DNA from: an uncultured Bacteroidia bacterium
Lineage (GTDB): Bacteria; Bacteroidota; Bacteroidia; Bacteroidales; F082
Reading direction: 5' to 3'
Assembly: GCA_902774295.1 (NCBI GenBank)
Contig: CACYHP010000005.1
Span: 1 to 64,000 of the forward strand
Length of the DNA stretch: 64,000 nt
The position numbers and the translations under genes are program-made. Shown in pieces: positions 10,162 to 64,000 of this stretch. The notes below the pieces were generated by a model. That model worked only from the letters and a program-made list of their open reading frames with translations. It searched no databases and was not told the DNA's origin. Each line of letters begins with the position of its first letter. The first letter of the stretch is position 1.

Positions 10162-10599
10162 ATGGGAGCAAGAAAACATAATACAGCAGAAGCTAGAAAA
10201 GCAGCTAAGAAGCAGGTCGCCATTGCAAAATACAATGATATCCCTACTTCACCACGCAAAATGCGCTTGGTCGCTGACATGATCAGAGGAATGAAAGTGG
10301 AACTTGCACTGCATGCCTTATTATACTCACCAAAAGCAGCTGCAAAGCCGGTGTACAAATTACTCCGCTCTGCAATCGCCAACTGGGAAGCTAAGAACGA
10401 AGGTAAGCGCATCGAAGACGCTAACCTGTACGTAAAAGAGATCTTTGTTGATGAAGGCCGCACACTGAAACGTATTCAGCCAGCCCCACAGGGTCGTGCA
10501 CACCGCATCCGCAAACGTTCTAACCACGTCACTATCATCGTCGATAGCAGACTTGCAGAAATGAATGCAGCAGAAGCTAATGTTGAAGAAAAGAATTAA
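10162..10599 (+). CDS. rplV: 50S ribosomal protein L22
   Basis: The 145-residue protein has the conserved [14 protein letters not shown] and the hairpin [20 protein letters not shown] that lines the exit tunnel, the macrolide-resistance region; I see no deletion there. A short acidic tail AEANVEEKN extends the C-terminus. It precedes rpsC in standard order. Confidence 0.95.
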
Positions 10600-10610
10600 T
10601 TAAGATTACA

Positions 10611-11345
10611 ATGGGACAGAAAACTCATCCAATAGGTTTAAGACTCGGAGTCATCAAAGGTTGGGACTCAAACTGGTACTGTGGAAAAGAAACAGCCAAG
10701 AATATCGGAGAAGACGATAAGATCCGTAAGTATCTCACCGCTCGTCTCGGTAAGGCTAGTATCTCAAAAATCGGTATCGAACGCTCGATTAAGCTCGTCA
10801 CAGTCACTATCTTCACAGCTCGTCCAGGTGTCATCATCGGTAAAGGTGGTACAGAGGTCGATAAGTTGAAGGAAGAGATGAAGAAGCTCATCGGTAAGGA
10901 GATTCAGATCAACATCAGCGAGATCAAGAGACCAGAACTTGACGCATTCATCGTGGCAAGTTCAATCGCAAAACAAATTGAAGGACGTGTATCATTCCGC
11001 CGCGCCATCAAGAAGGCTGTGTCAGATACAATGAGAATTGGTGCCGAAGGTATCAAAGTCATCGCATCAGGCCGTGTCGGTGGTGCTGAAATGGCTCGTC
11101 AGGAAACTTACAAGGAAGGTCGTATTCCGCTGCATACATTGCGCGCTGACATCGACTACTCTCTCGTGGAAGCTCACACATCATACGGTCGCATCGGTAT
11201 TAAGGTGTGGATCTGCAAAGGTGAGATCTACGGTCGTCCAGAACTGGTGCCTACCACCACAGCAGCAGCTGCACCTAAGAAGGGTGGAAACGCTGGCAAA
11301 CCAAACGGTGGCGCCCCACGTCGTAATAAACGTACTACAAAGTAA
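10611..11345 (+). CDS. rpsC: 30S ribosomal protein S3
   Basis: The 244-residue protein carries the KH domain motif [17 protein letters not shown] that contacts mRNA at the entry channel. The C-terminal part [19 protein letters not shown] is a low-complexity basic tail, making it longer than the core family. S3 and S4 form the ribosomal helicase. Confidence 0.96.
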
Positions 11346-59711: not shown

Positions 59712-61622
59712 ATGAAAAACATGAATTGTAAAGCATTGACAATGTCTTTATTGGTGGCGATTATTATGTTGCTGCCATTTGCGGCGAGTGCTCAGAGGAG
59801 CGACAGATTTTTTAGTGGTTTTGAGGATGACGATTATGAAAACCGCATTGCATTTATAGGACTGGGGAACCAGCCATTTGGTACTGAGCCGGCTCCTGTT
59901 GGCTCGGGATTGCTGGTTTTGACCGTTGCCGGCGCTGGCTATGCGGCTTTGAGGCGCAAACGTTCCAATAGGGCCTCTAAATCGCATAAGACACATATGT
60001 CTTATATGCTTGCTTTGGCAATGGTTTTGGCCTTTACAGGTTGCAAAAAGAAAATTGAGCCGGTGGTTCATGACAACGGAAATTCGGTTAATATCACCCT
60101 TAATGTGAACGGTGGCGGGAAACATGGTATTGTCCTTGATCAAGAATCTGGTTATTCACCTGTCGCTTACAGTGAAGGTGATGTTATCTATGTCGGTGAT
60201 GGAGGTTCGTATGTGGGTTATCTGACATGCCAAAGCGACGGAACAACGTTCACGGGTACTATCACGCCAAGTCCAACCGCTGATAATTTGTATTTTTATT
60301 ATGTCGGCGGACTTACTCCTCAAAACTGGGGTGGTGAAGTGGGTGAAAAAAGTTTCACCGTGGATATCCACGACCAATCCAATACGAACACAGGAATGGA
60401 TAATACTAATAAGCTTCCTGTTTTATCTGTTGGTACTGAAGACTATTATCTGGGGAAGGTCGAGTTTGATTGTATTCTTGAAAACAAATGCGCATTGGTG
60501 AAGTTCAGACTTAATACTAATGTCGGTGATGCTAAAGTAAGGATAAGCAATATGTTGTCGGAAGCTAAAATTGATTTCGCCAATCATTGTATCACGCCAA
60601 CAGGGACTTTGGATGCCATAACATTGTATTGCGGTCCTAGCAATAATGGTGAGCAAACAGTGACTAATATGTATTTGAGATGGGCAATTCTTTTGCCATC
60701 CGATGCAGAAAGGTCGGGATATGTTATTGTGGAAGATGGAGCTCAAATGGCTAATAATAAATATTATAACAAAGTAACTATTCCGGAAATCGATCCTGCA
60801 AGTGTCAATTATCTATATAGTCCTATCCAAATCAACAATCAGCCAGAGAATTTGACATCGGCTAATTTGTATATGGTTAGTAACAATTTCAATGTTGTCG
60901 AGTTTTCTCCTGGCAATCTGCAATATCATCCTAATTCAGGTAAATGGTATTTTGCAAAAAACACATGGAGTTATATTGGTAACGATAATTACGGCAATGT
61001 TTATTGGAAAACAGGCACGAATGACAGTATTAAATGTTCTAATACCAAAATAAGCACTAATGGTTATCAGGGTTTGATAGATTTGTTCGGATGGGGCGCT
61101 TGGGGCTATAATACTAAAGATGATATTTGCAATGCAAGTACAGACAATTCTGATTATACATGGACTTCTGATTTTCAGGGAACCATTGAAAATGACAGCC
61201 ATAATGATTGGAGAACGCTGACTAGAACCGAGTGGGACAAATTAAATACTATTCATAATAGTAATAAAAAGATTGGTAAAGGCACGGTGTTTGGAGTGCG
61301 TAGTGAGATTATTCTTCCTATAAACAACACAGCTACTATAGAAAATTATCAATGGACCACATTAGAGATAAATTCAGAAAACTGGGCTACATGGCGTGAT
61401 TATGGAGCAGTCGTATTACCTGCTACCGGTATGCGTTCGGGTATTAATGTGACAAAAGCTAAACCTGATGGCAATGATAAAAACACCGAGGGTTATTATT
61501 GGTCTTCATCTGAAATTAATCAAGATCAGGCATGTGGTGCTAGAAATTCTTCATCCAAACCTGCAATGACTGTTGATAATCTTTCCAAGTTTTACGGTTT
61601 TTCCGTCCGTCTTGTCCGATAA
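59712..61622 (+). CDS. Fused sorted-protein plus lipoprotein paralogue, surface protein
   Basis: The 636-residue protein begins with a signal peptide (MLLPFAASAQ), an acidic linker and a tail-like segment PVGSGLLVLTVAGAGYAALR followed by RKRSN. Right after comes a second lipoprotein-like signal (LALAMVLAFTGCKKK), then a fimbrillin-like half (VIYVGDGGSYVGYL, NKCALVKFRL) and a C-terminal FISUMP/DUF1566-like half (LPATGMRSG, GYYWSSSE, GFSVRLVR). It corresponds to the two genes at 22544-24375 joined in frame. An internal start at one of the Met codons before LALAMV could still make a separate lipoprotein. A terminator follows. Confidence 0.72.
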   Translation: MKNMNCKALTMSLLVAIIMLLPFAASAQRSDRFFSGFEDDDYENRIAFIGLGNQPFGTEPAPVGSGLLVLTVAGAGYAALRRKRSNRASKSHKTHMSYMLALAMVLAFTGCKKKIEPVVHDNGNSVNITLNVNGGGKHGIVLDQESGYSPVAYSEGDVIYVGDGGSYVGYLTCQSDGTTFTGTITPSPTADNLYFYYVGGLTPQNWGGEVGEKSFTVDIHDQSNTNTGMDNTNKLPVLSVGTEDYYLGKVEFDCILENKCALVKFRLNTNVGDAKVRISNMLSEAKIDFANHCITPTGTLDAITLYCGPSNNGEQTVTNMYLRWAILLPSDAERSGYVIVEDGAQMANNKYYNKVTIPEIDPASVNYLYSPIQINNQPENLTSANLYMVSNNFNVVEFSPGNLQYHPNSGKWYFAKNTWSYIGNDNYGNVYWKTGTNDSIKCSNTKISTNGYQGLIDLFGWGAWGYNTKDDICNASTDNSDYTWTSDFQGTIENDSHNDWRTLTRTEWDKLNTIHNSNKKIGKGTVFGVRSEIILPINNTATIENYQWTTLEINSENWATWRDYGAVVLPATGMRSGINVTKAKPDGNDKNTEGYYWSSSEINQDQACGARNSSSKPAMTVDNLSKFYGFSVRLVR

Positions 61623-61649: not shown

Positions 61650-61683
61650 CCGGTGTGGTTGTAGTGCTGCACCGGTTTTTTTT
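61650..61683 (+). terminator. Terminator of the fused surface protein gene
   Basis: CCGGTG (61650-61655) pairs with CACCGG (61670-61675), followed by eight T. Together with the new -7 box at 61734 it isolates the next gene from read-through. Confidence 0.85.
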
Positions 61684-61733: not shown

Positions 61734-61741
61734 TAATTTTG
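61734..61741 (+). promoter_or_regulatory. -7 box before the cobalamin riboswitch
   Basis: TAATTTTG ends six bases before the first riboswitch stem, so transcription would begin at about the aptamer's 5' edge. Confidence 0.6.
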
Positions 61742-61746
61742 CAGCC

Positions 61747-61911
61747 GATTTAGGGTGTCCCTTCGCGGACTCAATAGGGAACCGGGTGTGAATCCCGGAC
61801 AGTTCCCGCTGCTGTGATGGCCAATCGCCTGCCACTGTGCCACTGTCGCGACGCTCCGTCGGACGGGAAGGCGGCAAAGCGAGGCCTCAGTCAGAAGACC
61901 TGCCTCAAATC
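61747..61911 (+). ncRNA. Cobalamin (B12) riboswitch
   Basis: The core shows GGGAACCGGGTGTGAATCCC (from 61778), then GGACAGTTCCCGCTGCTGTGA, GCCACTG at 61831-61837, GACGGGAAGGCGG and the B12 box AGTCAGAAGACCTGCC at 61889-61904. GATTT and AAATC close the outer stem. All these are hallmarks of the class. It lies about 150 bases ahead of a large secreted Fn3 protein. The expression platform is unclear: a weak CCCTTTAAGGG hairpin with a T-rich tail lies at 61966-61980. Confidence 0.95.
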
Positions 61912-62064
61912 ACGAAACGACGCTTCCGGGAATTGGAGCTGGGATTCTAATTTTAATAAGGTATGCCCTTTAAGGGTTTTATCTTTGTTTTTTACTATTC
62001 CAACATTTTTTCCAGAAGTTTTAAGGTGATGAAATTATTATCAAATCTTAAAAACTTTTGTATT

Positions 62065-64000
62065 ATGTATTTTAAAAAATTTATCAAAAAAACTCATTTG
62101 TTGATCCTGCTGTTGGCGATATTTATGCCCTGGCAGGCGAAAGCACAGGAAACACTTACGGTGTATAACGGTAATGAAACAAGCCAATACATCCCAATGT
62201 ATGGCAATTATTTCGACGATTATACAAAAAGTGAATGCATCATTCCTGCAAGTATATTAAACGACATGGAAGGCGGAACAATCACCGCTATTACTTTCTA
62301 TGCCGAAACGGTCGGTACCCGTACATGGGAAAATACAAACCAGAAAGTGTTTCTCAAAGAAGTTGCCAACACTACTCTTGGTGGTAGCTACAGCGGCATG
62401 ACAGGTGCCACTATCGTCTTTGATGGCCGTTTAGAAATGCCGACAACATCCACAGACGGTTACACCATTACATTTTCCGAAGAATACGTCTACAATGGAG
62501 GTAATCTTTTAATCGGAGTTTACAATGACGATGATGGTAGCTATAACAATGTGAAGTGGTATGGCGTTAACAACCTTACGTCAGGCGTGTCGGCATACGG
62601 ATATAATAGCAGTAGCCTTGCTAATGTTAGCTATACTGCCCAAGGATTCCTCCCTAAGACAACTTTCACCTACGAGCCTGCAGGAGGCGTGAGTTGCGCA
62701 AAACCTAAGAATTTCAATGCATCAGGCATCACCGCCCATGAAGCCTCTCTGACATGGACCGCAGGCGACGAAGAAAGCAATTGGGACGTCTTCGTGACTA
62801 CAGACTCTGAAGTCGTGCCGGATGATAACACTACTCCGACTTATCAAGTCACGACATGCAGCAAAGAACTGACTGGACTGACCGCTCAAACCACTTATTA
62901 TGCATACGTTCGCGCCAACTGTGGCGGTGACTTTAGCAAATGGGTGAAAAAGGTCTTCAGCACCACACGCGTGGCATTGACAGTTGACGCGACACACCCT
63001 TATTCACAAGACTTTGAGACCAGCAACGACTGGGGATTTGAAAACGGCTCCCTAACCAACAACTGGTGCTGGGGTAGCGCTGTCAACAATGGCGGCGAAA
63101 AATCCATGTATGTCTCCAAAGATGGCTGCACAACCTATGAATATGCGCATGGCAACACAGTAATTTACGCTTCAAAACTGTTCAACTTTGCCCAAGGTAC
63201 TTATACTTTCGTTTTCGACTGGAAGGCCAATGGAGAAAGTACTTATGATTATTTAAGAGTTGCATTGGTTCCTGGCGATGTAGAGTTTACGGCAGGTACA
63301 AACCTCCCATCAGGCGTTTCGGCTTCAGGTCTGCCAAACACATGGATAGCCCTTGATGGAGGAAGCAAACTTAACTTGGTAAGCAGTTGGCAAAACAAAA
63401 CATCGGAAGCAGCTGTTAATGGCACATACACTATGGTGTTTCTATGGCGTAATGACGGCAGTGGAGGAGAGCAGCCACCAGCGGCAATCGACAATATCAG
63501 CATCAGCTACATGACATGCCCGAGACCGACTTTGAGTTATGTCTCAAATTCCAACACTGCGTATACTGGCAGCGTCTCATGGACTGGAAGCACCGCCGAC
63601 GCTTTTGAAATTGCATATAGGCCGACAAGCGATTTCGACCCGTCAGACTATACTTTGTCGGATGTCGTTCGCATCCAGCTTGAAAACGTGACCGAATACA
63701 ACTACACCTTGCAAAACCTCACTCCAGAGACAAAATATTACATCTATATCCAGGCTAATTGCGGCTCGGAAGACGGAGTGAGTTCATGGAGCAACCGTGT
63801 GATTTTCACTACGTTGGCAACATGTTTGGTACCTTCCTATTTGACAGACGAGTCGGTAACCTCAACATCGGTGAACCTCAGCTGGACAAAAGGCGCTGAT
63901 GACCAGGATGCTTGGCAGTTCCGCTATAAAAAGACAAACGACACTGATTATAACTATGTTTTAGTTGAAAACCATCCGGAAAACACCTACACCTTACAGG
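62065..64000 (+). CDS. Large secreted Fn3 and choice-of-anchor-J protein, incomplete at the window end
   Basis: At least 645 residues are visible and the frame is open at the end. A signal peptide (LLILLLAIFMPWQAKAQ) is followed by a beta-rich domain (about 30-205), an Fn3 domain (CAKPKNFNASGITAHEASLT, to about 295), a choice-of-anchor-J/MAM-like domain (PYSQDFETSNDWGF to AAIDNISISYMTC, about 312-490), and further Fn3 domains (SVSWTGSTADAFEIAYRP and NLSWTKGADDQDAWQFRY). Such proteins are usually cell-surface, often with a type IX sorting tail. An in-frame ATG at 62029 with AAGG before it is an alternative start. It lies behind a cobalamin riboswitch. Confidence 0.85.
   Translation, partial: MYFKKFIKKTHLLILLLAIFMPWQAKAQETLTVYNGNETSQYIPMYGNYFDDYTKSECIIPASILNDMEGGTITAITFYAETVGTRTWENTNQKVFLKEVANTTLGGSYSGMTGATIVFDGRLEMPTTSTDGYTITFSEEYVYNGGNLLIGVYNDDDGSYNNVKWYGVNNLTSGVSAYGYNSSSLANVSYTAQGFLPKTTFTYEPAGGVSCAKPKNFNASGITAHEASLTWTAGDEESNWDVFVTTDSEVVPDDNTTPTYQVTTCSKELTGLTAQTTYYAYVRANCGGDFSKWVKKVFSTTRVALTVDATHPYSQDFETSNDWGFENGSLTNNWCWGSAVNNGGEKSMYVSKDGCTTYEYAHGNTVIYASKLFNFAQGTYTFVFDWKANGESTYDYLRVALVPGDVEFTAGTNLPSGVSASGLPNTWIALDGGSKLNLVSSWQNKTSEAAVNGTYTMVFLWRNDGSGGEQPPAAIDNISISYMTCPRPTLSYVSNSNTAYTGSVSWTGSTADAFEIAYRPTSDFDPSDYTLSDVVRIQLENVTEYNYTLQNLTPETKYYIYIQANCGSEDGVSSWSNRVIFTTLATCLVPSYLTDESVTSTSVNLSWTKGADDQDAWQFRYKKTNDTDYNYVLVENHPENTYTLQ

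Follow-up and report, generated by a model that had tools for sequence, protein, structure and literature searches.

Why would a rumen bacterium place the gene for a large, adhesin-like surface protein behind a cobalamin riboswitch? The question arises at the end of a 64,000-nucleotide stretch of DNA (the window; C5:1-64000 of a 2.38-Mb genome), for which the original prediction had described a complete B12 aptamer with its own -7 box, preceded by a terminator and followed by a big secreted multidomain protein. All of these elements were recovered, and the B12 box lies exactly where it had been placed; the start of the aptamer had to be corrected, from 61747 to 61736. The aptamer is the sole Rfam match returned by cmscan in the whole window, and it is complete (103.6 bits; gathering threshold, 31.5 bits). 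The riboswitch and its leader comprise the following elements.

61650..61675, plus strand: intrinsic-terminator-like hairpin ending the upstream unit, a 10-pair stem followed by T8
61734..61741, plus strand: Bacteroidetes-type -7 box TAATTTTG of the riboswitch promoter, overlapping the first bases of the Rfam match
61736..61921, plus strand: cobalamin riboswitch aptamer, RF00174, E 7.8e-25, full model 1-189
61889..61904, plus strand: B12 box AGTCAGAAGACCTGCC, exact string
61922..61939, plus strand: hairpin GCTTCCGGGAATTGGAGC just 3' of the aptamer, kept with G-U/A-U variation in 23 orthologous leaders
61965..61977, plus strand: weak terminator-like hairpin within the leader, with TTTATC after it (sites of this kind are about as numerous as chance would give)
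62014..62059, plus strand: 13-pair hairpin directly before the start codon, with 96% of cells paired in 23 sequences

Because TAnnTTTG has 31 matches on the plus strand of the window, the assignment of TAATTTTG as the promoter takes its weight from position and not from the motif. The aptamer is nearly invariant across 23 orthologs. The hairpin just 3' of it is a candidate P13/L13 kissing partner of L5, and the weak hairpin at 61965-61977 is a candidate expression platform. A variable region separates the candidate P13 hairpin from the 13-pair hairpin before the ATG, in which 7 cells are changed on both sides; none of 500 shuffles reached as high a value, and slid versions were 27 to 70% paired. 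We searched the genome for the 3' leader with a sequence-only model; the mixed alignment yielded no pairs for a structure-bearing covariance model. Two strong copies of the hairpin were found, both at cobalamin units (that of the Fn3/CAJ gene, named below, and a DUF4430 unit, at C1:258972-259045), which suggests that unrelated genes came to share the regulatory cassette by copying. The 13-pair hairpin may itself be an expression platform, an mRNA stabilizer, or a protein site.

The gene behind this leader runs past the end of the window. The long open reading frame opens at 61963, and the true start is almost surely the ATG at 62065 (MYFKKFIKKTHLLILLLAIF, signal peptide), which is conserved in orthologs. 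Extending the sequence beyond 64000 brought the gene to its end at C5:66501 and gave the full protein, with Fn3 domains (four stretches; PF00041, 6.8e-33, 113.2 bits) and choice-of-anchor-J (CAJ; NF038128, 3.9e-20, 72.7 bits), both above the curated cut-offs. The domain order is an N-terminal domain, Fn3, the jelly roll CAJ1, two Fn3 domains, the jelly roll CAJ2, the last Fn3, the choice-of-anchor-J jelly roll CAJ3, a two-part C-terminal region, and a sorting tail.

62065..64000, running on to C5:66501, plus strand: Fn3/choice-of-anchor-J (Fn3/CAJ) surface protein, 1478 aa (open reading frame, start, PF00041, NF038128)
62149..62685, plus strand: N-terminal domain, an exchangeable module
62692..63519, plus strand: Fn3-1 and first jelly roll (CAJ1), the most conserved family core (domain identities; AlphaFold2, fold match)

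The type IX secretion system (T9SS) tail (TIGR04183/PF18962) is subthreshold in this protein (15.9 bits, cut-off 23) and above the cut-off in four of the five orthologs scanned. The genome encodes the T9SS translocon SprA, and the protein is probably exported by this route and displayed.

The pairing of riboswitch and gene is conserved. We searched 99 genomes of the genus with the Fn3-1/CAJ1 core and fetched 27 loci at or above 66% identity, each from a different genome. A local profile search found a riboswitch directly upstream in 25 of them; of 20 loci also run through cmscan, 18 were confirmed. In one exception (L188) only 331 bases separate the match from the upstream end of the contig, and in the other (L191) the Fn3/CAJ gene is the third of an operon that itself starts with a riboswitch. 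Among named records with enough upstream sequence, all 15 with at least 64% identity have the riboswitch, and only 3 do below 64%. Other, more distant proteins of the same architecture are also riboswitch-linked; Fn3-1/CAJ1 domains at 42 to 53% identity occur mostly in proteins with no riboswitch. Owing to phylogenetic dependence, the 25 loci cannot be counted as independent events. In a maximum-likelihood tree of 53 Fn3-1/CAJ1 sequences, one clade (SH-aLRT 85) holds riboswitch-linked proteins in 31 of its 32 members, and the riboswitch label changes twice on the tree, versus 17 times when shuffled. This pattern fits one recruitment of the riboswitch and one loss, with long retention. The only clade member without a switch is L212 (G148), with about 790 bases upstream examined, an apparent loss.

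The pairing is thus kept in about 30 related species, and the family is missing from about two thirds of the genus; outside the genus, 149 sampled genomes of the family contained one weak relative only. The relatives with named records are uncultured Bacteroidales, mostly from the rumen; one is bacterium F082, now Candidatus Alcium sp. F082. Most relatives are metagenome-assembled genomes, and the whole analysis is sequence-based. In the literature, we found no report of a cobalamin riboswitch with an Fn3 or T9SS adhesin.

The genome carries four cobalamin riboswitches, including that of the Fn3/CAJ gene. The other three lead the following units.

C5:85531, 23.8 kb from the Fn3/CAJ switch: BtuB-like receptor and BtuG homolog
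C1:258760: DUF4430 protein and a second protein with a T9SS tail
C1:311346: 1066-aa protein with a weak beta-helix match, DUF4465 (6.7e-52), and a T9SS tail

The best match of the BtuB-like receptor is the TonB-B12 model (1.4e-29, below the equivalog cut-off), and its partner is a DUF5074 protein that matches the surface-layer protein of PDB 8p97 at 8.8e-61. The genes of the DUF4430 unit (L011:9045-10226 and 10223-11221, equal to C1:259045-261221) both encode T9SS tails; the second product has 332 aa and a domain that was not recognized. The DUF4465 domain at C1:311346 matches the crystal structure PDB 9FCT at 1.4e-24, which is BtuJ1 with bound cobalamin (PMC12751083). Since CbiC is absent from the genome and B12-binding-domain proteins are present, the bacterium most likely depends on imported corrinoid.

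Across the genus, the Fn3/CAJ gene keeps similar company. In 14 species no more than about 5 kb separates it from a beta-helix gene, a DUF4465 gene, or both, these neighbors mostly having a riboswitch of their own; often a CoA-transferase gene and a MarC membrane-protein gene, paired behind a riboswitch, are also adjacent. In the genome studied here, the DUF4465, CoA-transferase, and MarC genes are together at the C1 unit, and the Fn3/CAJ gene stands apart on C5, not adjoining DUF4465. The CoA-transferase (PF13336, 6e-58; TIGR03948, butyryl-CoA:acetate CoA-transferase, 1.7e-90, below cut-off) lies at C1:306626-307939 (minus strand) in this genome, and elsewhere at L148:15468-16784 (minus), L142:511-1827 (plus), L144:11483-12796 (minus), and L324:5284-6600 (minus); its pairing with MarC in many species of the genus would put a metabolic enzyme under B12 control. 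Three loci (L319:236-650, L321:1139-1552, and L322:1801-2215) have a pair of divergent cobalamin riboswitches separated by about 105 bases, with Fn3/CAJ on one side and, in the two with enough contig, DUF4465 or beta-helix on the other.

The first gene after 93 riboswitches of the genus, sampled from the best-scoring ones listed and so not at random, was most commonly DUF4430 (28), followed by BtuB (18), Fn3/CAJ (17), DUF4465 or the related T9SS group (7), CoA-transferase (7), and others (8), with 8 unreadable at contig ends or through gene calling. At L128:322-475 and L157:316-473, the genes behind the riboswitch resemble those for anaerobic ribonucleotide reductase and its activase, a classical B12-sparing client. 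From the conserved riboswitch pairing, the single clade, and the DUF4465 neighborhood, we conclude that, on comparative genomic evidence, the Fn3/CAJ protein is a genuine member of the corrinoid regulon.

What would such a protein do? Because of the company that its gene keeps, we favor a role in corrinoid capture: a surface scaffold or adhesin that would be made under B12 shortage and work with other riboswitch-controlled surface proteins (probability, roughly 0.6), so that the protein probably belongs to the B12-scavenging kit of the cell. From the elements computed here (riboswitch, gene, conserved pairing, regulon, neighborhood, fold class, and export machinery), we infer a course of events in which an ordinary corrinoid-sensing riboswitch would repress the unit when intracellular corrinoid is sufficient. 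That low corrinoid relieves such repression is established for the class in Bacteroides thetaiotaomicron (PMC8941943, PMC12751083). Scarcity of B12 would then lead to production of a large Sec- and type-IX-secreted surface protein, whose Fn3 spacers and MAM/cleaved-adhesin-like jelly rolls may keep at the cell surface either material that carries corrinoid or a partner protein that binds it. Its partners would be the DUF4465/BtuJ-type protein, the DUF4430 protein, and BtuG-BtuB, all riboswitch-controlled. Against this reading, the same domains appear in many surface proteins of the genus with no riboswitch, the family is absent from much of the genus, the T9SS tail of this member is subthreshold, its gene does not adjoin DUF4465 here, and, as set out below, no known corrinoid-binding domain was found in it. 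More tentatively, and as a possibility only, it may be a T9SS-exported Fn3/MAM protein, unlike known corrinoid binders, that is switched on by the B12 riboswitch and fastens the cell to corrinoid sources, such as producer cells, debris, or a partner with a DUF4465 domain, with vitamin sensing directly controlling attachment.

The main rival to the scaffold or adhesin reading is that the protein binds cobalamin or other corrinoids directly via a jelly roll, as a new capture class beside BtuG, BtuH, BtuJ, and BtuK; we consider this unlikely. The site would most likely be the conserved Fn3-1/CAJ1 core. Among riboswitch-linked members, Fn3-1 and CAJ1 have a median identity of about 70% to the window protein; the next Fn3 reaches 65%, CAJ2 and CAJ3 stay near 50%, and the N-terminal domain falls to 26%, which makes it an exchangeable module. 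This domain, which had been put forward for a binding test, is also common among surface proteins with no riboswitch upstream, and we rejected it as the probable ligand site. Direct binding is favored by the conservation of the core, by the fact that the other cobalamin-riboswitch units of the genome all encode a known or plausible corrinoid-handling surface protein, and by BtuJ, which is also an augmented jelly roll (PMC12751083).

However, CAJ1 relatives of 42 to 53% identity are found in proteins with no riboswitch, and fold comparisons argue against direct binding. The AlphaFold2 models of CAJ1 and CAJ2 are good (pLDDT, 95.8 and 90.3), and Foldseek against the PDB relates the predicted folds to the meprin MAM domain, CBM22, CBM4, and the K1-K3 cleaved-adhesin domains of Kgp. 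The 50 matches listed for each of CAJ1 and CAJ2 include no corrinoid binder, and neither BtuJ nor BtuH is among those for CAJ1. A Pfam scan found no DUF4465 in the protein, and comparison of CAJ1 and CAJ2 with the DUF4465 profile was negative; the idea that either jelly roll is a hidden DUF4465 was rejected. There is likewise no DUF5074 (the BtuG beta-propeller), and a PDB-sequence search returned only Fn3 proteins. Residues special to riboswitch-linked CAJ1 were also rejected as a lead, as the changes are few and conservative. The original prediction of surface capture of cobalamin or corrinoid-bound partners is upheld as to regulon membership, with BtuJ-type DUF4465 neighbors. Direct binding by the protein would be a candidate function; Pfam, NCBIfam, PDB-sequence, and profile comparisons found no known corrinoid-binding domain in it.

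Three known systems come closest to the Fn3/CAJ protein. BtuJ (DUF4465, IPR027828) and BtuH are riboswitch-controlled corrinoid-binding surface lipoproteins of B. thetaiotaomicron (PMC12751083, PMC8941943, PMC13398666). The Fn3/CAJ protein resembles them in cobalamin riboswitch control, in being a predicted surface or secreted protein of B12-dependent Bacteroidota often with several such proteins per genome, and in its link to DUF4465, whose gene it adjoins in the 14 relatives. Unlike them, it has no DUF4465 or BtuH-like domain and no lipobox, is much larger, and has an Fn3/MAM-type architecture with a T9SS tail in relatives; corrinoid binding is only a candidate function. It shares the regulon logic of the BtuG-BtuB uptake complexes (PMC10404256), which have a riboswitch-led counterpart in this genome, but is neither a TonB receptor nor a beta-propeller. 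In the predicted fold of CAJ1 and CAJ2, the Fn3-like spacers, and probable T9SS export, it is like Kgp of Porphyromonas gingivalis, with its cleaved-adhesin domains K1-K3, and other choice-of-anchor-J/MAM proteins, but it has no protease, shows 11 to 16% sequence identity in structural alignments, and is under B12 control.

Domains of the Fn3 and MAM/CBM types typically serve adhesion and glycan binding, and this, together with the paralogous domains in riboswitch-free surface proteins and the freely exchanged N-terminal module, would suit a further explanation, in which B12 shortage is an environmental cue that switches on an adhesin for microbes, plant, or host surfaces with no corrinoid handling. 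The riboswitch has long been retained (by 31 of 32 tree members); this and the tight DUF4465 linkage in 14 species point instead to the corrinoid pathway, and we regard the cue explanation as improbable.

The original prediction had also allowed that genes beyond the window might be the real B12 clients. The Fn3/CAJ gene is followed by one small gene (an 81-aa exported protein, C5:66522-66767), a 13-pair terminator 3' of it, a TATCTTTG promoter-like box, and a separate operon of genes resembling an NAD-linked hydrogenase. Because the terminator and separate promoter-like box precede the hydrogenase-like genes, we take the riboswitch unit to consist of the Fn3/CAJ gene and the small gene; reading past 64000 through the terminator to the hydrogenase-like genes found no classical btu gene in it. 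That the real clients lie further downstream, or that the riboswitch is an unused relic, can be dismissed as very improbable: hydrogenase-like genes do follow the unit here and in two or three relatives, but the terminator and promoter-like box intervene, the Fn3/CAJ gene stays in most relatives while downstream genes differ, and the aptamer is nearly invariant.

Several species have, behind the Fn3/CAJ gene, a gene for a small exported protein of 81 to 94 aa that ends in PLGSG, a hydrophobic stretch, and RKKE or KRRK; besides the genome studied here, it is the second or third gene in L140, L150, L155, and L161. These proteins are possibly an anchor or partner peptide. The gene upstream of the riboswitch (window positions 59712-61622) appears to join a small protein of this kind (GSG-hydrophobic-RRKR) to a lipoprotein-like second signal (LAFTGCKKK).

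Riboswitch-controlled surface proteins of Bacteroidota have yielded the new B12-binding families BtuG, BtuH, BtuJ, and BtuK. The Fn3/CAJ proteins of uncultured rumen Bacteroidales add another conserved family to these clients; they are built like adhesins and have no recognized corrinoid site. If they bind corrinoids, they would represent a new binding fold; if they are adhesins, they would link vitamin sensing to attachment. Either way, they provide testable genes from a habitat where B12 supply affects propionate production.
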